DNA of 64,000 nucleotides from Archangium primigenium (GTDB lineage: Bacteria > Myxococcota > Myxococcia > Myxococcales > Myxococcaceae): NCBI RefSeq assembly GCF_016904885.1, contig NZ_JADWYI010000001.1, positions 2,914,001 through 2,978,000 on the forward strand, written 5' to 3'. Of the stretch, positions 22,151 to 34,051 are shown piece by piece (position 1 is the stretch's first letter; every line of letters begins with the position of its first letter). The notes under the pieces are model-generated. The model saw only the letters and a program-made list of their open reading frames with translations, did not search any database and was not told where the DNA came from. A program made the translations under genes and the position numbers.

Positions 22151-23188
22151 ATGGAACTCGAGGCCGCGCTGCGCGACCAGGTGGGGAAGGCCATTGGCCG
22201 CCCCGTGTCCCAGGCTCCCATCAAGAAGCTCAAGGGGGATGCGAGCAACCGCTCGTATTACCGCGTGGGCACGCCGCCCGAGAGCTGGGTGGTGATGGAG
22301 ATGCCCCTGGATGCATCCAAGAAGAGCGAGGAGGCCTCCAAGGGCGAGCCGCCCAAGGAGCTGCCCTTCGTCAACGTGCACCGCTACCTGGAGCGCCTGG
22401 GCGTGCGCGTGCCGCGCATCCTGCGCTACGACGAGCCCGCGGGCATGATGGTGCTCGAGGACCTGAGCGACGTGACGTTCGAGGCGGCGCTCGAGGGCGG
22501 CAAGCACCGCGACGCGCTCTACACCCGCGCGGTGGACCTGCTCGCGCGCCTGCGCGCCCAGGCCGAGCGCCAGGCGGACCCGGACTGCCTCGCCTTCACG
22601 CGCGCCTTCGACGAGGACCTGTACGACTGGGAGCTGCACCACTTCCGCGAGTGGGGCCTGGAGGCCTGGAGCGGCAAGAAGCCCACGGAGACGGAGCGCG
22701 CCGAGCTGGACCGGACCTTCCGGGACATCGCCCGGCAGCTCGCCGCGGCGCCCCGGGGCTTCACCCACCGCGACTACCAGAGCCGCAACATCATGGTGAA
22801 GGACGGCGAGCTGGTGGTCATCGACTTCCAGGACGCGCTGCAGGGCCCGCGGCAGTACGACCTGGTGGCGCTCCTGCGCGACAGCTACGTGGAGCTGGAC
22901 CGGGGCTTCGTGGACGCCATGCTCGACCGGTACATCGCCACGTTCGCCGAGGCGACGGGCGAGCGCATCGAGCCCACGGCCTTCAAGGCCTACTTCGACC
23001 TGCTCACGCTCCAGCGCAAGATGAAGGACGCGGGCCGCTTCGAGTTCATCCACCGGGTGAAGGGCAATCCGGGGTTCCTGGTGTCCATTCCGGCCTCGTT
23101 GCGCTATGTGCGCGACGCCTTCGAGCGCCGTCCGGAGCTCGGGGCGCTGCGCACGCTCGTGGCCCGGTACGTGCCCGAGCTGGGGTGA
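22151..23188 (+). CDS. amgK: AmgK-like sugar kinase (aminoglycoside phosphotransferase fold)
   Basis: The protein has 345 residues with a kinase-like fold. KKLKGDASNRSYYRV near 24-38 is the nucleotide-binding start, DLSDVTFEAAL follows the hinge, the catalytic loop is THRDYQSRNIMV (His206, Asp208), and the metal-binding site is VVIDFQDALQGP. The family matches AmgK, which phosphorylates anhydro-N-acetylmuramic acid recycling products (MurNAc/GlcNAc) at the anomeric position. The gene directly downstream, 49 bases away, is a MurU-like nucleotidyltransferase; this pair defines the MurNAc salvage route that bypasses fosfomycin-sensitive de novo UDP-MurNAc synthesis. Function as a kinase is firm; substrate is inferred from the pair. 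Confidence 0.82.
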   Translation: MELEAALRDQVGKAIGRPVSQAPIKKLKGDASNRSYYRVGTPPESWVVMEMPLDASKKSEEASKGEPPKELPFVNVHRYLERLGVRVPRILRYDEPAGMMVLEDLSDVTFEAALEGGKHRDALYTRAVDLLARLRAQAERQADPDCLAFTRAFDEDLYDWELHHFREWGLEAWSGKKPTETERAELDRTFRDIARQLAAAPRGFTHRDYQSRNIMVKDGELVVIDFQDALQGPRQYDLVALLRDSYVELDRGFVDAMLDRYIATFAEATGERIEPTAFKAYFDLLTLQRKMKDAGRFEFIHRVKGNPGFLVSIPASLRYVRDAFERRPELGALRTLVARYVPELG

Positions 23189-23236
23189 GCCGGCGGCGGT
23201 CGAGCACTCGGCGGTCGAGCACGAAGGGGTGGGTCC

Positions 23237-24256
23237 ATGAAGGCGATGATCCTGTGCGCGGGGTTGGGCACGCGCCTGCGGCCGTTCACCGAGCGGTGGC
23301 CCAAGCCGGCGCTGCCCTTGCTGGGCCAGCCGCTGTTCCGCTACCACCTGTCGGTGCTGCGGAGCGCGGGGGTGACGGCGGTGGGCATCAACACCCACCA
23401 CCTGCCGGACGTCATGGCGGAGACGGCGCGGGCGGAGTGCGCGCGCGTGGGGCTGCCGCTGCACGTGGTGCACGAGCCCGTCATCCAGGGCACGGGTGGG
23501 GGCATCCGCGGCCTGAGGGACTTCCTGTCGGACGGGGACTTCCTCGTGTTCAACGGGGACATCCTCTTCCCGGTGGACCTGCGCCCGGTGGTGGCCGCGC
23601 ACCGCGAGGCCGGCGCGGCGGCGACGATGGTGCTCCTGCCCATGCCGGAGAACGAGACGTACGCCTCGGTGGACCTGGAGGCCCGGGGACAGGTGCGCCG
23701 CATCGCCGGCCGGGGCCCGGGGGGCGAGGGCCTCACGCCCTGGCACTTCACCGGCGTGCACGTGATGTCCCCGCGCGTCTTCGACTTCATGACCGCCCAG
23801 GGCCCCGAGGACATCAACCGCGACGTCTACGTGCGGATGATGGAGGCGGGCCTGAGCGTGCGCGGCGAGGCGGTGAAGGCCTACTGGTCGGACCTGGGCA
23901 CGCCCTCGCGCTACCTGGCCACGGTGCACGACGTGCTCGGGGGCCGGGTGCCGCTCACGGGCCTGGGGGCGGACTCGCCCTTCGCGGAAGCGCCCCGGGG
24001 CGCGGGCTACTTCTGGGCGCACGCCTCGGCCCAGGTGGACGGGCAGGTGGAAGGGCCGGCCTACTTCGAGGCCCGGAGCGTGGTGTCCCGCGACGCGCGG
24101 GTGGGGAGCTCGGTGGCGGTGGGCGCGGGCGTGCGGGTGGCGGAGGGCGTGCGCCTGGAGCGCAGCGTGCTGCTGGAGGGCACGGCGCTCCAACCCGACG
24201 AATCCCTGGTGGACACGGTGGCCTGGGGCGCGCACCGGGTGCACGCGCCGCGCTGA
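23237..24256 (+). CDS. murU: MurU-like sugar-1-phosphate nucleotidyltransferase with extra C-terminal domain
   Basis: The protein has 339 residues. The catalytic domain (1-235) carries MKAMILCAGLGTRLRPFTERWPKPALP with the GxGTRLxPxT-xx-PK signature, FLVFNGDILFPVDL (metal-binding Asp) and YWSDLGTPSRYL. MurU of Pseudomonas, about 223 residues, makes UDP-MurNAc from MurNAc-1-phosphate. This protein has a further 100 residues with hexapeptide-like turns (AQVDGQVEGPAYFEAR, ARVGSSVAVGAGVRVAEGV) typical of a left-handed beta-helix. That brings it closer to GlmU/ManC-like nucleotidyltransferases. Linkage to the AmgK-like kinase supports the MurU role. It is convergent with a PP2C gene, 16 bases apart. 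Confidence 0.78.
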   Translation: MKAMILCAGLGTRLRPFTERWPKPALPLLGQPLFRYHLSVLRSAGVTAVGINTHHLPDVMAETARAECARVGLPLHVVHEPVIQGTGGGIRGLRDFLSDGDFLVFNGDILFPVDLRPVVAAHREAGAAATMVLLPMPENETYASVDLEARGQVRRIAGRGPGGEGLTPWHFTGVHVMSPRVFDFMTAQGPEDINRDVYVRMMEAGLSVRGEAVKAYWSDLGTPSRYLATVHDVLGGRVPLTGLGADSPFAEAPRGAGYFWAHASAQVDGQVEGPAYFEARSVVSRDARVGSSVAVGAGVRVAEGVRLERSVLLEGTALQPDESLVDTVAWGAHRVHAPR

Positions 24257-24272: not shown

Positions 24273-25037
24273 TCAGTTGGCGTGGAAGCGGGCGAGCACG
24301 CAGGTGACGTTGTCGTTGCCGCCCGCGGCGTTGGCCAGATCGATGAGCTGCGAGCAGGCCTTCTCCAGCTCCAGCGTGCGGCCCAACAGGTCCTGGATCT
24401 GCGGGTCCGTCACCATGCCGCTCAACCCGTCCGAGCACAGCAGGAAGACGTCGCCCTGCTGGGCCTCCACCTTCGTCACGTCCACCTGCACCAGCTCCTT
24501 CATGCCGAGCGCCCGGACGATGACGTTCTTGTGCGGGAAGTTCTCGATCTCCTCCGGCGTGAGCTTCTTGGCCTTGAGGTAGTCGTTGAGCAGCGAGTGG
24601 TCCTCGGTCAGCTGGCGCAGCACGCCCTGGCGGAAGAAGTACACGCGGCTGTCACCCACGTGCCCCACGTAGGCCGAGTCCTGGGTGAAGTGCACCGAGA
24701 CGATCGTCGTCCCCATGCCCTTGTACTTCGTCTCGTGGGTGGCCTTCTCGTAGATGCACTTGTTGGCCAGCTTGATGCCCGTGGCCAGGCGGTTCTCGTC
24801 GTAGTTGCGCGCCTTGTCCATCTTGAACGGCCAGGTGGCGTCCTGGTCGCGCGCCGTCATGCGAAAGAACTCCGCCAGCTCGTCCACGGCGATCTTCGAG
24901 GCGATCTCCCCGGAGGAATGGCCGCCCATGCCGTCGGCCACGCAGCACAGGTTCTCCTCCTGGAGGATGAGGTAGTTGTCCTCGTTGTGGTTGCGCTTCA
25001 TCCCAACGTGGGTGTGGCCAGCGACCTCAATGCGCAT
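24273..25037 (-). CDS. PP2C-family Ser/Thr protein phosphatase
   Basis: The protein has 254 residues, near the usual 240-250 of bacterial PrpC/Stp enzymes. Metal-binding motifs are HVGMKRNHNEDNY (Asp in NED), CVADGMGGHSSGE, VGHVGDSRVYF, LTEDHSLLNDYL, LCSDGLSGMV and GGNDNVTCVL. It removes phosphate from Ser/Thr with two Mn/Mg ions and would oppose Hanks-type kinases such as the one at 40542-42158. No membrane helix is present, so it is cytosolic. It is transcribed alone, with about 130 bases between its start and the next gene's stop. Confidence 0.9.
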   Translation of the reverse strand: MRIEVAGHTHVGMKRNHNEDNYLILQEENLCCVADGMGGHSSGEIASKIAVDELAEFFRMTARDQDATWPFKMDKARNYDENRLATGIKLANKCIYEKATHETKYKGMGTTIVSVHFTQDSAYVGHVGDSRVYFFRQGVLRQLTEDHSLLNDYLKAKKLTPEEIENFPHKNVIVRALGMKELVQVDVTKVEAQQGDVFLLCSDGLSGMVTDPQIQDLLGRTLELEKACSQLIDLANAAGGNDNVTCVLARFHAN

Positions 25038-25166: not shown

Positions 25167-25523
25167 TCAGGCGACGGGCTCGAGCACGAGCCGGTCCCCC
25201 TCCTGGGTTCCACTCGCCGCGAGGGTGCCCGCGGGCAGCTCCACCACCGATTTCGCGCGGAAGTACATCGACGTGGTCCTCCAGGGCGGCAGGGCGAGGA
25301 ACTGCTTGACGATCACCCCGTCCGGGTCGAGGAAGGCCACATCGATGGGAATGCGCATGAAGAAGGTATGAATGGAATTGCAAGGGTCGATGTGCAGCCC
25401 CTCGCCCAGCGCCAGCGAGCGCCGGCCCATCAACCCCACGAAGCGGTCCGCGAAACGGGTGGCTCGCTCCGCGCGGTCGGCGAGCAACCGGTCTCGTGTC
25501 ATGTTGGTCACCCTCAAGCGCAT
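25167..25523 (-). CDS. DUF192 family protein
   Basis: The protein has 118 residues from the ATG at 25523 (MRLRVTNMTRDRLLADRAE). The rest follows DUF192: FVGLMGRRSLALGEGLHIDPCNSIHTFFMRIPIDVAFLD, then VIVKQFLALPPWRT and SVVELPAGT. Family members are small beta-barrel proteins, often exported; here there is no signal peptide. Function is unknown. It is divergent from trmL, 18 bases between starts, so the two must share or overlap a promoter. Confidence 0.82.
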   Translation of the reverse strand: MRLRVTNMTRDRLLADRAERATRFADRFVGLMGRRSLALGEGLHIDPCNSIHTFFMRIPIDVAFLDPDGVIVKQFLALPPWRTTSMYFRAKSVVELPAGTLAASGTQEGDRLVLEPVA

Positions 25524-25541
25524 ACCGCGCGTTCTACTCCA

Positions 25542-26045
25542 ATGCTCCAGCCCTTGGCGCGCCCCTTCCACCTCGTCCTCGTCTCCCCTCAGATTCCCCC
25601 CAACACCGGCAACATCGCCCGCCTGTGCGCCGTCACCGGCTGCCGCCTCATCCTCGTGGAGCCCCTGGGCTTCTCCATCGCGGACCGCGACCTCAAGCGC
25701 GCGGGGCTCGACTACTGGGACAAGGTCTTCCTGAAGCTCTACCCGGACTACGCCGCCTACCTGGCCGAGTGGCCCTCCACCAGGCGCTGGCTGTTCTCCG
25801 CCCGGGCTGAAACATCCCTGTATGACGCCCGGCTCGAGCCGGGGGACCACCTCGTCTTCGGCTCGGAGACCCAGGGGCTGGGCCCGGAGGTGCTCTCCGG
25901 AGGCTCCGGCACGGCCGTCACCCTCCCCATGCTCCCGGAGCGCCGCAGCCTCAATCTGTCCACCGCCGTGGGGATCGCCGCCTACGAGGCCCTGCGGCAA
26001 GTCCACTTCGGGATGCCGGGCGGCCGGGCGGACACGCCAAGTTGA
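25542..26045 (+). CDS. trmL: tRNA (cytidine(34)-2'-O)-methyltransferase TrmL
   Basis: The protein has 167 residues from the ATG at 25542, close to the usual 157-170. SPOUT-fold motifs: QIPPNTGNIARLCAVTG, LILVEPLGFSIADRDLKRAGLDYW, VFGSETQGLGPEVL, and LPMLPERRSLNLSTAVGIAAYEAL with the trefoil knot. It methylates the ribose of the wobble base in tRNA-Leu CAA/UAA using SAM. The next gene starts 33 bases later. Confidence 0.9.
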   Translation: MLQPLARPFHLVLVSPQIPPNTGNIARLCAVTGCRLILVEPLGFSIADRDLKRAGLDYWDKVFLKLYPDYAAYLAEWPSTRRWLFSARAETSLYDARLEPGDHLVFGSETQGLGPEVLSGGSGTAVTLPMLPERRSLNLSTAVGIAAYEALRQVHFGMPGGRADTPS

Positions 26046-26063
26046 GAGGAGGGAAGGACGGAC

Positions 26064-26069
26064 TACACT
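26064..26069 (+). promoter_or_regulatory. -10-like TACACT close to the start of the giant repeat protein
   Basis: TACACT lies 9 bases before the ATG at 26079, so a transcript from it would carry a leader of 2-3 bases. AGGAGGG at 26047-26053 is 25 bases away, too far for normal ribosome binding. Either a leaderless start or co-transcription with trmL is possible. Confidence 0.35.
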
Positions 26070-26078
26070 GGGCGCCGC

Positions 26079-29000
26079 ATGCCCGCCTCGCAGGTCGCCG
26101 ACACGCTGTACTCCGTCCACAAGTCCCGCTCCACTGGCCGGCTCACGCTCCGGGCCGGGGACCAGGAGTCCCTGCTGTTCCTCCAGGAGGGCAACCTGGT
26201 GGGGACCCGCCTGGGCTTCGGGTTCCAGACGCCCGTGCAGTCGCTGTTGCAGTCCGGTCTGCTCTCTCCGGAGACGCTGGATGCGCTGTGGGCCCGCGAG
26301 AGCGCGGGCGCCCCGGACGAGGAACTGCTGGAGAGCCTGGGGCTGTCCGCTCGGGGCGTGGCCGAGCACCAGGTGCTCGCGCAGGTGCGCCGCCTGAGCC
26401 AGTTCGCCGAGTCCGCTGACTTCGAGGAAGGGGACATCGAGGAGATGTTCCTGCCCATCCCGGGGACTCGGGTGGTCCGTGCCGCCTTCGAGCCCTTGCG
26501 CCAGGAGGCCCTCGCCGCACGCATGTACCGGTGCGTGGACGTGGACGCCTGCGCTCCCTGGGTGCAGGGGGAGGAGGAGCGCACGTTGCTGGAGGCGCTC
26601 CCGGACTTCCATCGCCTGGAGGGCGTGCCTCCGTCCATGGACATCCTGCTGAAGGTCCTGGAGCGCGAAGGGCTCGTCGAGTCGCTGTCCGTCGAAGAAT
26701 GGACGGAGCGCGAGAACGCCCGGCTGGCCGAGGAGGCTCGGCAAGCGGAGGAGGTCGCACGGCTCGCGGAAGCGGCACGCCTGGCCGAGGAGGCACGCCT
26801 GGCCGAAGAGGCACGCCTGGCCGAGGAGGCACGCCTGGCCGAGGAGGCACGGCTCGCGGAAGAGGCGCGCTTGGCGGAGGAGGCCGCACGGCTCGCGGAA
26901 GAGGCTCGGCTCGTGGAAGAGGCCCGGCTTGCGGAAGAGGCACGCTTGGCCGAGGAGGCCGCACGACTCGCGGAAGAGGCGCGTCTGGCCGAAGAAGCAC
27001 GCTTGGCCGAAGAGGCCGCACGGCTCGCGGAACAGGCGCGTCTGGTCGAAGAAGCACGCTTGGCCGAAGAGGCCGCACGGCTCGCGGAAGAAGCACGCCT
27101 GGCCGAAGAGGCGCGTCTGGCCGAAGAAGCACGCCTGGCCGAAGAAGCACGCCTGGCCCAAGAGGCCGCACGGCTCGCGGAAGAGGCGCGCTTGGCCGAG
27201 GAGGCCCGGCTCGCGGAAGAGGCGCGTCTGGTCGAAGAAGCACGCTTGGCCGAAGAGGTGCGTCTGGCCGAGGAAGCCGCACAGCTCGCGGAAGAGGCAC
27301 GCCTTGCCGAGGATGCACGCCTTGCCGAGGAGGCGCGCTTGGCCGAGGAGGCCGCGCGACTCGCGGAAGAGGCACGTCTTGCCGAGGAGGAGCGCCTTGC
27401 CGAGGAGGCACGGCTCGCGGAAGAAACACGCTTGGCTGAGGATGCTGCGCGACTCGCGGAAGAGGCACGCCTAGCCGAAGAGGCACGGCTCGCGGAAGAA
27501 GCACGCTTGGCCGAGGAGGCCGCGCGACTCGCGGAAGAAGCACGCTTGGCCGAGGAGGCCGCGCGACTCGCGGAAGAAGCACGCTTGGCCGAGGAGGCCG
27601 CGCGACTCGCTGAAGAGGCACGCCTGGCCGAAGAAGCCGCGCGGCTCGCTGAAGAGGCACGCCTAGCCGAAGAGGCACGCTTGGCCGAGGAGGCACGGCT
27701 CGCGGAAGAAACACGCTTGGCTGAAGAGGCTGCGCGACTCGCGGAAGAGGCACGCCTAGCCGAAGAGGCACGGCTCGCGGAAGAAGCACGCTTGGCCGAG
27801 GAGGCCGCGCGACTCGCGGAAGAGGCACGCCTAGCCGAAGAGGCACGCTTGGCCGAGGAGGCCGCGCGACTCGCGGAAGAGGCACGCCTGGCCGAAGAAG
27901 CCGCGCGGCTCGCCGAAGAGGCGCGCCTGGCCGAAGAAGCCGCGCGGCTCGCCGAAGAGGCGCGCCTAGCCGAAGAGGCACGCTTGGCCGAGGAGGCACG
28001 GCTCGCGGAAGAAGCACGCTTGGCCGAGGAGGCCGCGCGACTCGCGGAAGAGGCGCGCCTGGCCGAAGAAGCCGCGCGGCTCGCTGAAAAGGCACGCCTA
28101 GCCGAAGAGGCACGCTTGGCCGAGGAGGCACGCCTTGCCGAGGAGGCCGCGCGGCTCGCGGAAGAGGCGCGTCTGGCCGAAGAAACGCGCCTGGCTGAGG
28201 AGGCCGCGCGGCTCGCGGAAGAGGCGCGTCTGGTCGAAGAAGCACGCCTGGCCGAAGAAGCCGCACGGCTCGCGGAAGAAGCACGCCTAGCCGAAGAGGC
28301 GCGTCTGGCCGAAGAAGCACGCCTTGCCGAGGAGGCCGCGCGGCTCGCGGAAGAGGCGCGTCTGGCCGAAGAAACGCGCCTGGCTGAGGAGGCCGCGCGG
28401 CTCGCGGAAGAGGCCCGGCTGGCCGAAGAAACGCGCTTGGCCGAAGAGGTCGCACGGCTCGCGGAAGAGGCTCGCCTGGCCGAAGAATCCGCGCGGCTTG
28501 TGGAAGAAGCACGCCTAGCCGAAGAGGCGCGCTTGGCCGCAGAAGCGGCGCGACGCGCGGAAGAAGCACGCCTAGCCGAAGAGGCGCGCTTGGCCGAAGA
28601 GGCGCGCTTGGCCGAGGCGGCCGCACGGCTTGCGGAAGAGGCGCGTCTGGCCGAAGAGGCCCGCTTGGCTGAAGAGGCCGCACGGCGCGCGGAAGAGGCC
28701 CGCTTGGCCGAAGAGGCGCGGCAGGCCGAAGAGGCACGGCAAGCCGAAGAGGCCCGCTTGGCCGAGGAGGCCACACGGCGCGCGGAAGAGGCGCGTCTGG
28801 CCGAGGCGGCCCGCTTGGCTGAAGAGGCCGCACGGCGCGCGGAAGAGGCCCGCCTGGCCGAGGAGGCCGCACGGCGCGCGGAAGAGTCCCGGAAGGCCGA
28901 AGACGCACGCCTGGCGGCGGAGGCCGCACGGCTCGCGGAAGAGGCCCGGCTGGCCGAAGCGGCCCGTTTGCAGGAACAGGCACGGCTCGCGGAAGAGGCG

Positions 29001-31325
29001 CGTCTGGCCGAGGAGGCCGCACGGCGCGCGGAAGAGGCCCGCCTGGCGGAAGAGGCCCGCCTGGCGGAAGAGGCCCGCCTGGCGGAGGAGGCGCGCCTGG
29101 CCGAGGCGTCTCTGCGCGCGGAGAAGGCGCGACTGGCTGAAGCGGCCTGGCATCGTGCGGAAGCGCTCAACGAAGCCGAGGAAGCGGCCCGGCTCGCCGA
29201 GAATGCCGCCCGGCTTCTCGCGGAGGGGCAGCAGATCGAGCAGGCGCGTCTGGCCGAGCAGATCCGCCTGGCCGAGGAAGCGTCCCGCATCCTCGAGGAG
29301 CAGCGTCTGGCCGAGGACGCCGCACGGCTCGCCGAGGAAGCGGCCCGGCTCGCCGAGGAGGCGTGGTTCCGCTCCGCGCGGGAAGAGCGACTGTCCACTC
29401 CGGAGGGCCCGTCCGGGAACGTCGAGACCGTCAATGTCTCGTCCCCCGAGGTGGCGGCGCCCTTCGCCGATTCGTCCTCGCTCCAGGAGAACGACTTCGT
29501 CTTCACCACCCTCACCGATGTCCTTCCTCCTCCCGAGGACATCCAGGGCGCCGCGCTCGATGTCTCGCTCGCCGACCTGTCTCCGTCGACCGAGGGGTGG
29601 TTCGACGCCGCCCCCACGTCGCCGCCGCCGGCGCCCGAGGTCGTGGTTCCCGCGCAGGCGCCCGCTCCCCGCGTGGCGGACACCCCGGACGCCCTGCGCG
29701 GAGCGCGGGCCCAGGCGAATAGCGCGTTGATCCAGGACATGGAGGAGGCCCTGCGCAGAGCGGGTGCCGCTCCTCCGGACGCCTGGCTCATGGAGGAATC
29801 GGAGCCCGTGGCCCCGGCCCCTCCTGTCGCGGAGCCCTCGGTTCCGTCTCCGGAGAGCGCCGCGCCCGTGGAGTCGTGGGCCATGTTGTCGGCATCCGAT
29901 TCACCCGAGCCGGTCGTGCCGCCTCCGCCCGTGGTCGTTCCCCAGCGGCCCACCACGCCTCGCGCCGATGTGCCTCCCGGCATGCGTCCGCCCGCGGCGG
30001 GCGCGCGTCCGGCCGTCGCCGCCGTGCCGCCAGGCCTGCGTTCCTCCTCCACGAGTGGCGCGTCCACGCCCCGCGCCGCCGGACAGACGTCCTCCGTGCC
30101 TCCGAACCTGTCCGCCCGGGCGACCACGGCGGCGCCTCCGCCCGCGTCCGTCCTGGAGCCGGACGTGCGTCCCATGACCGAGGACGTGCTCTGGCGCATC
30201 GTCGCCTTCGACAAGGCCTCGGCCGGTGAAGCGGCGGGGGACATCAACGCCTCCTTCGAGGCCGCGCTGCATCAGGTCGATGCCCATCTGGAGTCGCTCG
30301 TCCAGGTCGAGCTCGGCGCTGCTCCGGCGGCGGCACCGGTGCCCGCCGTGGAGCCGCCTCCCGCCGTGGAGCCGCCTTCCGCCGGGGCGCCTCCGCCCGC
30401 GGCGACGGTGGCCGCCGCGCCAGCGCCCCGCGCGCCCGCGCCTCCGGTCTCCGCCCCGCGCGCCCCCGCGCCGGGTCCGGTCGCGGGGGGGCGCGAAGCG
30501 GCCGTGGGCGCGCAGGCGCCGCGTCCAGCGCCCATCCGGGCGCCGGAGCCCGCCGCCAAACCGGCCTCCCCGGCGCCCGCTTCGCCGGGCGTGGACGAGC
30601 AGCAACTCGCCCAGCTCATCGAGAAGCGCTACGCGGACGTCCAGGCGAAGAAGGATCACTTCACGATGCTGGGGCTCGCCATCGGCCCGGACCTCAAGCG
30701 CGAGCAGGTGAAGACGGCGTTCCTCGGGCTCGCCAAGCGCTTCCATCCGGATCGCCTGCCGCAGTCGCTCTCGCCCCTGGCGCCCAAGATGACGGCCATC
30801 TTCGAGGCCATCCGCGATGCCTACGAGGTGCTCTACGACGACGCGAAGCGCGCGGCGTACCTCCAGGAGCTGCGCTCCAAGGGGGCCTCTCCGTCGCTGC
30901 GGCCCCGGCCCGGCGGCGGCATGGATCCCGAGGAGCTGTTCAAGATGGGCGAGGTCTTCTTCCGCAAGCGGGACTTCGTGGCCGCGGCCGAACATTTCGA
31001 CAGGGCCTTCCAGGTGGAGCCCAAGGCGACCTACTTGGCGGCGAGGGGGTGGGCCATCTACATGGACCCCCAACGCAAGGCGGAGGCGGGCAAGGCCCGG
31101 CAGATGATGACCGAGGCGCTCAAGAAGGATCCGCACTGCGAGCGGGCCCACTATCAGCTGGGGGTGATCGCCCGGGTGGAGGGGGACATCGAGCGGGCCG
31201 AGCGGCACTTCCGCGAGACCCTGCGTGTCAACCCCAAACACCTGGAGGCGGGTCAGGAAATGCGCATCATCGAGATGCGCCGCAAGAATCCACCTCCGGG
31301 GAAGAAGGGCGGCTTGTTCCGCTGA
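26079..31325 (+). CDS. Giant scaffold: DUF4388, 882-residue ARLAEE stalk, J domain, TPR
   Basis: The protein has 1748 residues. Domains in order: residues 1-115 a DUF4388/PATAN-like module ([31 protein letters not shown]); 214-1095 an almost pure stalk of 6-residue ARLAEE and 7-residue AARLAEE units; a Pro/Ala-rich disordered region to about 1510; a J domain at about 1524-1590 ([20 protein letters not shown], then KRFHPDRLP with His1556-Pro-Asp); and TPRs to the end. The HPD is intact, so stimulation of an Hsp70 ATPase is expected. There is no signal peptide or membrane helix. The Arg/Glu-rich repeats should form a long single helix or coiled coil. The neighbour downstream also has DUF4388 and TPR. 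Role unknown; a long spacer tethering a chaperone site is inference. Confidence 0.8.
26718..29363 (+). repeat. 2.65-kb minisatellite of 18/21-bp units (ARLAEE / AARLAEE)
   Basis: About 140 tandem units of 18 bp, mixed with 21-bp versions carrying an extra Ala codon, fill half the gene without one stop or frame change. Codons vary (CTCGCGGAA, CTGGCCGAA, CTTGCCGAG), and blocks such as an A-A-R-L register followed by three plain units recur, which shows higher-order duplication. All unit lengths are multiples of three, so slippage keeps the frame. Confidence 0.95.
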
Positions 31326-31477: not shown

Positions 31478-34051
31478 GTGGCCAAGCAGCACCTGCTCCT
31501 GGTCGATGGTGACCCGAAGAGTCTCCGTGTCATGGAGGTCAGCCTGAAGAAGGCGGGCTTTTCCGTCACGACCGCGATCCACGGCAGGGACGCGCTCGAG
31601 AAGGTGCAGATCAGCCCACCGGATCTGGTGCTGTCCGACACGAAGATGCCCGAGATGGACGGTCTGGTCCTGTGCAAGACGCTCAAGACGGACGAGCGCT
31701 ACAAGCACATTCCCTTCGTCTTCCTGACCAACCAGAAGGCGGTCGAGGCCAAGGTGAAGGGCCTGGAGATGGGGGCGGACGACTACTTAACCAAGCCCAT
31801 CTACATCAAGGAGATCGTCACCCGCGTGACGATGATCCTCCAGAAGGCGGACAAGGAGCGCATCGAGCGGCGCGAGACGACCAAGGGCGGCTTCGCGGGC
31901 AACCTGGTCGACATGGGCGTCGTGGACCTGGTGCAGACGTTCGAGATCGGCCGCAAGACGGGCACCATCTCCATCAAGGGCGACCGCGTCGCCACCATCT
32001 ACTTCAAGGAAGGCCGCGTCATCGACGCGGAGATGGGCCGGCTCAAGGGCGAGAACGCCTTCTACCGGCTGCTCAACGCCACCGACGGTGAGTTCGAGGT
32101 GCAGTTCTCCGCGCTGGATCGCCCCGAGCGCATCGAGGTCTCCACCCAGGGCCTGCTCATGGAGGGCATGCGCCGGCTGGACGAGTGGGGCCGCATGCTC
32201 GAGCAGCTGCCGCCGCTGGAGACGCTCTTCGAGATCGACTACCACCAGCTGGCCGACCGGCTCTCGGAGATCCCGGACGAGGTCAACGGCCTGCTGCGCC
32301 TCTTCGATGGCAAGCGCTCGTTGAGCCGGGTGGTGGAGGACTCGGACTTCGACGACCTCGCGGCCCTGGGCATCATCAGCAAGCTGTACTTCGAGGGGCT
32401 CATCCGCGAGCTGGGCAGCGTGTCGCAGGAGCCCGTGCAGAGCGGCAAGCCGGGCATCGAGGAGTGGCTGCACAACGCGCCCGCGCCGAGCGCGCCCGTC
32501 GAGCCGGCGCCGCTGCCCGAGCTGCGCGCGGTCGCGCCCATGCCCGAGCCCGAGGTGGTCGCGGCGCCGGTGGTCGAGCCCGTGGCCGCCCTGGAGCCGC
32601 CCGCGCCGGAGATTCCCATCGAGGTGGCGCCGCAGCCGCAGCTCGCCAACGTCGTCGTCTTCGAGGCCCGTCGCCGTCCGGCGAACGCCGCCGAGGCGGA
32701 CCTGATGGCCCCGCCGCGCACGGCCGAGGGCTCGTCGTTCCTCGTGGATCCCGCGCCGGCCCACCGCGCCAAGGACGAGGCCCAGCGCAGCCTGCTGCTC
32801 GACTGGGACCGGGTGGACGAGGATGGAATCGGCTCGGCGCAGGGGTGGGGTCCCTCGTGGTCGCCCGCGCCTCGCGCGCCCTCCGCCTCCGCTTCCGCGC
32901 CCACGTCGGCACCGGTCGCCCCCGCCCCCGCCCCGGTCCCGGCCGTCACCCCCACGCCGGTGGCGCCCGCCGCGCCGGTGGAGAGCCTGGCCTCCAAGGC
33001 GCCCATCTTCGGGGGCGCGGCCCTGTCGCCTCCGCTGGCGGCGGTGCCTCCTCCGGAGCCCGCCACGCCCGCCGAGGAAGTGACGCACGTGTCGGCCAAG
33101 ATGCCGGTCATGCCGCCCGTGCCCGCCGAGGCCGCGCCGCCCGCTCCGGTTGTCGCCGCTCCGGTTGTCGCCGCCGCTCCGGTTGTCGCCGCGCCCGTCG
33201 CCGCCGCTCCGGTCGTCGCCGCTCCGGTCGCGCCCGTGTCGCCGGCCGCGCCCGCGGTCCCGCCCGCCGCCGAGGCGCGCAAGCCCTCCGTGGAGTCCAC
33301 GCCCCGGCCGCGCACGGGCTCGGCGGAGCGCAAGGTGTCCGAGTCCGAGAAGCCCAAGCGGACCGGACTCTTCGTGGGCGTGGGCATCGCGGCCATCGCC
33401 GTGGCCGCGGCGGTGGTGGCCTTCACCCGCTCGGGGGGCGAGGCGCCCGCGCCGACCGTGACGCCGACGGCTCCCCGTGCCGCGACGCCGTCCGCGCCGC
33501 CGGCCCCCACCGAGGCCAAGGCGCCGGAGACGCCCGAGCCGGAGACGAAGGCGCCCGTCGCGACTCCGGAGCCGGCCACCGCCACCGCCCCGGCCGCGCC
33601 CGTGCCGGCCCCCGAGGCGGCGGCGAAGGCCGAAACCCCGGGGGCGGCGCCGCCCACGGCCGCCGCCGCCGAGAAGGATCCCGAGGCGCGCTTCGCGGAG
33701 CTGGTGCGCGAGGCCCGCAAGTCCCTGGCGAGCGAGCGCTACAAGGCCGCGGCCCGGGCCTACCGCGAGGTGCTGGAGCTCAAGCCGGACCATGCCGAGG
33801 CCCGGGTGGGGCTGGGCATCGCGCTGGTGCGGGGGGAGACGGGCGACTACCGGGAGGCCAGCCGCCTGCTGGAGGACGTGACGCGCGAGCAGCCCCGCAA
33901 CGCCAGTGCGTGGTTGTTCCTGGCCGTGGCCCGCGAGCAGACCCAGCAGAAGAAGAAGGCGGCCGAGGCCTATCAGCGTTATCTCTCGCTGGAGCCCAGC
34001 GGGAAGTACGCGGCCGACGCACGAAGCGCGCTCAAGTCGCTCGGGCAGTAG
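31478..34051 (+). CDS. Receiver-DUF4388-transmembrane-TPR protein
   Basis: The protein has 857 residues. The receiver domain (1-122) has VDGDP, phospho-acceptor Asp54 in [15 protein letters not shown] and Lys in YLTKPI. DUF4388/PATAN (about 137-240) carries [33 protein letters not shown] and ENAFYRLL. A helical region and a long Pro/Ala-rich linker (about 330-610) follow, then one membrane helix (about 629-650, [19 protein letters not shown]), a second Pro/Ala stretch, and TPRs at about 725-857 ([19 protein letters not shown]). With the receiver inside, the TPRs would be periplasmic. A fused cytoplasmic sensor with a periplasmic interaction module is unusual. A two-component partner is not in the window. 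Confidence 0.85.

Follow-up and report, generated by a model that had tools for sequence, protein, structure and literature searches.

The window analysed here, a 64-kb stretch of the genome of Archangium primigenium, carries a gene for a 1748-residue protein whose central stalk is an array of about 140 near-identical units of 6 or 7 residues (ARLAEE or AARLAEE). This array is no assembly artefact, and its residues are under strong purifying selection. Its product is probably a J-domain (Hsp40-type) scaffold protein of Myxococcaceae-type bacteria, located in the cytoplasm. Our overall reading, put forward as possible rather than probable, is that of a co-chaperone with an exceptionally long, straight, hexad-built helix between two ends that are joined elsewhere by a coiled coil, by other charged repeats or by nothing. 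In the same reading, the synonymous code of some 140 near-identical Glu-Glu-Ala words, carried on a leaderless mRNA, would be rewritten by a selection that keeps down both internal Shine-Dalgarno-like sites and excess mRNA structure, in an array that goes on turning over. No published work on this protein was found in the literature searched, as judged by titles and the first lines of abstracts. The gene is laid out as follows.

26042-26069, + strand: promoter-like TTGAGA-16-TACACT, 9 nt before the ATG (promoter scan)
26079-31325, + strand: whole gene, 1748 aa, ATG start, stop-free (open frame and translation)
26079-26717, + strand: N-terminal head, a DUF4388/PATAN match (residues 6-74) and a second small domain (Pfam, AlphaFold2 (AF2))
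26718-29363, + strand: array, 882 residues, of 6- and 7-residue units (Tandem Repeats Finder (TRF), translation, core-pattern counts)
29364-30617, + strand: linker, Pro/Ala-rich, low complexity (translation, by eye)
30675-30860, + strand: J domain, residues 1533-1594, HPD at 1556-1558 (Pfam DnaJ)
30927-31286, + strand: TPR helices, residues about 1617-1736 (Pfam TPR, AF2, PDB folds)
31302-31322, + strand: C-terminal tail KKGGLFR (alignment)

The array, its conservation and its turnover

The array runs over exactly 882 residues (A 34.5, E 29.5, R 16.2 and L 14.6%) with no stop, and RLAEE occurs in it 101 times, where about 0.6 would be expected from composition. A looser core pattern detects 146 cores, some of them overlapping, at spacings of 6 (82 cases) and 7 (39 cases), and TRF reports an 18-nt period (124.8 copies, 69% matches, 26757-29104) with higher-order periods of 57, 75 and 132 nt. 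Canonical units are dense in the middle of the stalk and sparse at its ends, including the last tenth of the array. A preliminary description, made from the letters of this DNA, had counted about 140 units without stop or frame break, and this count holds. It had also noticed that synonymous codons vary and that larger blocks recur. Both observations are borne out: the 94 exact ARLAEE units are written with 39 different 18-mers, and 41% of the 24-mer positions of the window stalk recur, against 3% when its own codons are shuffled within their amino-acid context and 11% when the codons of the rest of the gene are used. A search of PDB sequences with 120 stalk residues gave no match at E <= 0.01. 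An antisense open frame of 1394 aa (26063-30247, minus strand) spans the array, and we take it as a by-product of a GC-rich repeat. Scans of the whole window with Rfam, at gathering thresholds, and for tRNA genes gave no match.

The head was searched in 59 genomes, its own included, and the tail in 96 genomes of the host family and 49 others of the order. Head matches (E <= 1e-3) were found in 39 of the 59, the weakest being probably other DUF4388 proteins. The J-TPR tail (E <= 1e-40) was found in 85 of the 96 host-family genomes, its own included, and in 5 of the 49 others. The 11 host-family genomes without it include fragmented assemblies, two of which (G006 and G007) have a head that runs into a contig end, and three genomes of 2.1-2.7 Mb. 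All 19 host-family genomes with an assembly of one or two contigs encode the head, a long stalk and the tail in a single uninterrupted frame, 1345-2131 aa between stops, which speaks against an assembly artefact.

For comparison across genomes, 61 rows (60 loci and the window) were assembled, and stalk length was measured throughout by a composition rule that gives 927 residues for the window. Nine incomplete rows were dropped: L117 and L118, whose contig begins in the stalk, L101, which has a run of N, and L043, L048, L049, L050, L120 and L121. None of the 52 complete frames is interrupted, and their stalks measure 100-1374 residues (median 990). The 49 stalks of at least 400 residues range from 501 to 1374, and L044, L045 and L046 (105, 226 and 100 residues) fall outside this group. 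Since an HPD motif was a condition for a frame to be called complete, this set says nothing on HPD conservation; among the other closed frames of the first set, 15 of 16 have the HPD, and the sixteenth (L047) has it too on its correct strand.

Selection on the residues was estimated between units of the window, at positions that had not been used to pick the units. Synonymous differences (pS) amount to 0.69 and non-synonymous ones (pN) to 0.10, a ratio of 0.14; over 50 sequences the median ratio is 0.22 (range 0.10-0.69). This means that the array is not a neutral minisatellite. The word minisatellite, used in the preliminary description, fits the dynamics of the DNA but not the strong purifying selection on its residues.

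The number of units differs between close species. Between species whose J-TPR DNA is 95-98% identical, each represented by one genome, stalk length differs by 1 to 471 residues. For the largest difference (471, between L095 and L111), one of the assemblies is in about 60 contigs; stalks of 928, 929 and 1078 come from L087, L088 and L089, whose genomes are assembled in one or two contigs. Among the in-stalk alignment gaps of 16 close pairs, 353 in all, 337 are multiples of 3, with 242 of them at least 18 nt long and 145 multiples of 18, counts that mainly show an absence of frame breaks, as the aligner tends to place such gaps in the repeat. Exact 24-nt repeats exceed own-codon shuffles in 49 stalks of 49 and exact 30-nt repeats in 48; for 12-nt words that recur at a distance of 18 nt, 43 stalks lie more than 2 standard deviations above the shuffle mean and none lies that far below it. 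Whole units are gained and lost in the DNA, presumably through recombination or slippage, under a selection that keeps the residue pattern. The preliminary description had stated that copy number must vary by recombination; the variation is there, and the mechanism is what we infer from it. Codon scrambling as a protection against recombination was considered and rejected, given that exact repeats exceed shuffles and that neighbouring units are not kept apart.

A predicted helical rod

To describe the packing of the stalk, its seam moment was compared with those of ideal repeats: an ideal hexad scores 0.14 and an ideal heptad (AARLAEE alone) 1.00. The window stalk scores 0.283, below all of 50 self-shuffles (0.406+-0.036, minimum 0.311), and the seam is below the shuffled value in 49 of the 49 stalks. 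As a positive control, the repeat of L142, from another family of the order, scores 0.66 against 0.46+-0.03. Stretches built only of 3, 4 and 7 spacings extend over no more than 14 residues in the window, and none of the 49 stalks has one above 21. By the seam and spacing measures used here, no published coiled-coil predictor having been run, the continuous heptad or hendecad hydrophobic seam by which a coiled coil is recognised is absent from the stalk. According to the preliminary description, the mixing of 6- and 7-residue units disturbs a heptad coiled coil. A heptad seam is indeed missing, but the mixture is not the key to it, as the hexad alone removes the seam. Most relatives consist mainly of hexads, identity being highest at lag 6.

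The charges of the stalk are arranged as would suit a helix. In the window, like-charge pairs at i+3 and i+4 number 5 and 7, against 106 expected, whereas E->R(+3) pairs number 134 (45 shuffled) and R->E(+4) pairs 125 (45 shuffled). These are the two top-ranked E-R pair types in PMC5347031 (in part). Each of the 49 stalks has more opposite-charge pairs at i+3 and i+4, and fewer like-charge ones, than any of its 10 shuffles. The composition of the stalk is another matter: in 910 residues there are 1 Pro, 2 Gly and 4 Lys, with 33% Ala, 46% charged and 17% hydrophobic residues. In predicted single alpha-helices (SAHs), about 80% of the positions are charged, Asn or Gln (PMC5812594, in part). The stalk thus has the opposite charges without a seam of an SAH, and at 46% charged lacks its composition.

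On this basis we favour, without great assurance, a stalk that is a helical rod and not a heptad coiled coil, with a monomer and a bundle both possible. We say helical rod rather than single alpha-helix because the charge pairing fits an SAH and the composition does not; the long Arg/Glu single alpha-helix that the preliminary description had held possible is retained to the same extent. The array would form one unbroken and more or less straight alpha-helix, about 130 nm long at most, as three hexads (18 residues) make five turns and the leucines are spread round the helix. The arithmetic behind the earlier estimate of a stalk above 100 nm is right (882 x 0.15 nm = 132 nm if the helix is straight), and gives a predicted length.

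Several observations weigh against a rod of this kind. Ordinary charged-helix segments of the same genome (57 of them) have an average seam of 0.39; a low seam alone is therefore not distinctive, and that of the stalk matters mainly as absence of a seam. R->E(+3), ranked as the least favoured E-R pair in PMC5347031 (in part), is as enriched as the favoured ones (139 against 45), and E->R(+4), at 47 against 44, shows no enrichment. The composition just described lies outside that of classical SAHs, and designed helices rich in Arg or in Ala aggregated (PMC5347031, in part). One of the 49 stalks, L119, is without 6-residue periodicity. Finally, the rows share ancestry, with 11 genus labels among the 49, and counts out of 49 are not 49 independent tests.

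The aggregation of such designs, together with the Ala and hydrophobic content of the stalk, suggests another rod without heptads, one that self-associates: helices would lie side by side as straight bundles or as filaments, held by Ala, Leu and dynamic Arg-Glu contacts, and the working unit would be a filament, not a monomeric spacer. We consider this unlikely, though a serious alternative, given a net charge of -123 over 927 residues and no continuous hydrophobic face, and given that an all-Arg natural helix of myosin-6 remained monomeric (PMC5347031, in part). A canonical coiled-coil stalk with interrupted heptads can draw on a Leu every 6-7 residues, on the perfect heptad that AARLAEE forms by itself and on the seam-bearing repeat that precedes the J domain in L142. 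The shortness of the 3/4/7 runs and a seam below shuffled values in every stalk make it improbable.

That the stalk is a flexible, disordered charged linker seems very improbable to us. A paralogue in the same genome does have a low-complexity Pro/Ala/Lys linker in the same place, and a Pro-rich stretch follows the stalk; but the stalk itself is nearly devoid of Pro and Gly, and its opposite-charge pairing with near absence of like-charge pairs is the pattern to be expected of selection for a helix. The strong helix formers Ala, Glu, Arg and Leu also count against a disordered linker. Hardly credible, at last, is a neutral minisatellite or an assembly artefact with no selected product. Its proponent could point to the duplicated DNA blocks, to the degenerate edges of the array, to fragmented assemblies that break inside the stalk (the scaffold of L101/L148 has its N run there) and to the draft L058, whose C-terminus is out of frame. 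The pN/pS ratio of the window, the complete frames of all the one- or two-contig genomes of the host family and the lack of any interrupted frame among the complete ones speak against it.

Synonymous codons and the start of the gene

The stalk differs from the rest of the gene in its codons. Its mean GC content at third codon positions (GC3) is 0.667, compared to 0.898 in the head, 0.849 in the linker and 0.937 in the J-TPR part, and it is the lowest of the four in 49 of 49 genes. The window stalk, at 0.713, stands against a mean of 0.927 in 183 frames of the same genome (19 x 20 kb), one of which is as low, and none of 62 other charged-helix segments of that genome is as low. Glu-Glu is written GAGGAG in 84% of cases elsewhere and in 26% of cases in the stalk. 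AGGAGG occurs 1293 times in the 49 stalks, compared to 2078 when their own codons are shuffled and 4431 with rest-of-gene codons, and it is below both in each stalk. When 125 five-mers are ranked by how consistently they are depleted relative to own-codon shuffles, AGGAG, GGAGG, GAGGA and AGGAA take four of the first five places. Predicted mRNA structure of the stalk averages -43.3 kcal per 100 nt, compared to -51.3 with rest-of-gene codons, and is weaker in 49 of 49. Through composition, not order, predicted folding of the stalk is about as strong as in the other parts of the gene; mRNA structure as a target of codon order was rejected, since in no more than 21 of 49 stalks does the actual order fold more weakly than shuffles of its own codons.

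Our reading is that stalk codons reflect selection against internal Shine-Dalgarno-like sites, plus a general shift to AT-ending codons. The nearest known effect in the literature searched is the depletion of Shine-Dalgarno words in coding regions (PMC5100845, in part). Some of the counts do not agree with avoidance of such sites. In the window, AGGAGG occurs 30 times against 30.4 in own-codon shuffles and 89 with rest-of-gene codons, which means that there the depletion lies in codon composition, not in codon order. The weaker relative AGAGG shows enrichment (3659 against 1842); GGAGG is still denser in the stalk than in the other genes of the genome (11.9 against 3.3 per kb); and isolated Glu-Glu pairs elsewhere, with their prevailing GAGGAG, show no avoidance. 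Alternatively, stalk codons may hitch-hike with duplicated units. The minor Ala codons of the stalk differ between species.

The start of the gene may bear on this question. The pattern TTGAG-N17-TA[CG]A[CG]T precedes 46 of the 56 head-bearing rows (L037 and L038, whose start codons had been assigned wrongly, being counted as misses), with the same spacer in 46 of 46 and an ATG 9-10 nt further on in 45 of 46; in 380 kb of background from the same genome it has no match. The mRNA is thus predicted to be leaderless, and if it is, internal Shine-Dalgarno sites would be more of a burden.

The two ends, their neighbours and a proposed role

The J domain (PF00226) is recognised at 36.7 bits, above a cut-off of 27.8, with E 4.5e-9 for the C-terminal part and 1.3e-8 for the whole protein. 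TPR_2 scores 44.3 bits in Pfam, and the AF2 model of the J-TPR tail (pLDDT 86.7) matches PDB TPR folds with E down to 4.3e-5. Gly-rich, Phe-bearing C-terminal tails are common to 13 aligned sequences. No signal or membrane segment was noticed by eye in the protein, and no predictor was run. The head was modelled with a pLDDT of 86.5 over residues 1-224, its last helix (205-223) running into the stalk. Its DUF4388 match (PF14332) reaches 25.5 bits for a cut-off of 25 with the head alone (E 1.4e-5), 22.8 bits in the full protein and 25.8 bits in a genome-wide scan, and spans positions 9-74 only of the 122 of the profile. Compared to the PDB, the head model had no Foldseek match at E <= 1e-3, and a VIA-align Z of at most 4.4. 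In the own genome (G000), 19 DUF4388 matches were listed, 18 of them above cut-off, one lying in a 1506-aa open frame (C1:8232401-8232835).

What lies between head and tail changes with the lineage. Outside the host family, within the same order, an 86-residue repeat with a seam precedes the J-TPR part of L142 over at least 867 residues, and charged repeats of other kinds are found in L143 and L144. The contigs of all three stop short of the head, and the slot is deduced from the tail and, for L142 and L143, from a neighbouring gene with a response regulator (RR) receiver and DUF4388, which adjoins both. L145 and L146, from two further families, have DUF4388 (51.2 bits in L145), J and TPR (below cut-off in L145) with no stalk, in 659 and 581 aa; both follow SpoU and PP2C genes, and the RR/DUF4388 gene follows L145, while the 1.3 kb downstream of L146 did not show it. 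In the host family itself, the two ends of L044 and L046 are separated by no more than about 100 residues, charged and non-hexad. The paralogue mentioned above (L122:2682-5012) begins with a GYF_2-like part, seen by eye, and goes on with DUF4388, the Pro/Ala/Lys linker, J and TPR. Among the matches listed, many host-family genomes have a second one, of 33-38% identity. Orthologues with no repeat, which the preliminary description had thought would tell against the array, do occur in L145 and L146, but they point to insertion or loss of the stalk and not to an artefact. A short stalk as ancestral state was considered on a J-TPR tree whose branches are long and whose outgroup is very distant. 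Both ends are kept, with something to join them whose kind and length change, and this supports a spacer.

Gene order was compared in 31 named loci, with Archangium, Corallococcus, Hyalangium, Myxococcus, Pyxidicoccus, Citreicoccus and metagenome-assembled genomes among them. The neighbours in the window are as follows.

22151-24256: APH-type kinase, then nucleotidyltransferase; also upstream in most named relatives
24273-25037, - strand: PP2C-type phosphatase (Pfam), in 28 of 31 named loci
25452-26045, + strand: SpoU-type RNA methylase, the gene before (Pfam), in 28 of 31 named loci
31478-34051, + strand: next gene, RR receiver, DUF4388 and TPR (Pfam), in 13 of 13 named loci with enough flank

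Of the three loci without SpoU and PP2C genes, two (L060 and L064) lack upstream flank altogether, and in L073 neither gene lies in the 2.9 kb available. In the 13 loci with enough downstream flank, tsaD and rsmA are also found. The first 330 residues of the RR, DUF4388 and TPR neighbour are 79-95% identical in these 13 loci, and it may be a partner of the stalk protein. The kinase and nucleotidyltransferase may be an AmgK/MurU-like pair of peptidoglycan recycling. L065 (BNCN01000011.1), titled 'Comamonas sp. KCTC 72670', has the myxobacterial locus in full synteny, and its title is probably wrong.

As to function, we would guess from the known domains that the head docks to a partner, that the J domain recruits DnaK and that the TPRs bind a client at a distance. 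The rod would then work as a spacer of a length that is long enough and not exact, as the range of the 49 stalks suggests. This DnaK-linked, long-reach scaffold is a tentative view of the cellular role. The domains are the only link between the protein and DnaK, and the match of the head to DUF4388 is marginal, its model having no PDB match at E <= 1e-3; stalk length varies 2.7-fold, three genus-mates having 501-558 residues where the window has 927 by the same measure, which speaks against a precise ruler.

The protein can be set beside several known systems. With the SAH or ER-K domains of myosin levers it shares a long charged helix, in its case a predicted one, with opposite charges at i+3 and i+4, no seam, and a place as connector between domains. 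Classical SAHs are irregular and up to 80% E/K/R (PMC5812594, in part), whereas the stalk, poorer in charge, rich in Ala and almost without Lys, repeats one 6/7-residue unit about 140 times over about 900 residues. As in other DnaJ/Hsp40 proteins with TPRs, a J domain with its HPD is followed by TPR helices; unlike in them, J lies near the C-terminus, with a DUF4388 head, the giant stalk and the Pro-rich linker ahead of it. The PATAN/DUF4388 proteins of myxobacteria and cyanobacteria are alike in their head (by a marginal match) and in the RR-DUF4388-TPR neighbour, and differ by the absence here of a receiver domain and by the J-TPR tail and the stalk. Two such PATAN proteins of M. xanthus (MXAN_3211 and MXAN_4965) co-occur with SgmX, a regulator of type IV pili (PMC11580455, in part), and PATAN genes lie near some genes for MglA-type GTPases (PMC4316618, in part). 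FrzS-type scaffolds of Myxococcus likewise have a signalling-type N-terminal domain and then a long helical region, described as a coiled coil (PMC11580455, in part). The stalk protein has no seam, and it ends in a J-TPR tail. The same comparison presumably extends to coiled-coil motility scaffolds of the AglZ type.

Taken as a whole, the family offers a natural series of predicted helical rods of 501-1374 residues, mostly made of one six-residue unit, in one protein and at one locus, with stalk-less and coiled-coil-like relatives available for comparison. With its codon signal, the stalk also lends itself to testing whether synonymous sites of repeat genes are under selection. The series itself allows one to ask whether the length of a spacer counts, how long a helix without coiling can become, and how a protein is kept constant while its gene turns over.

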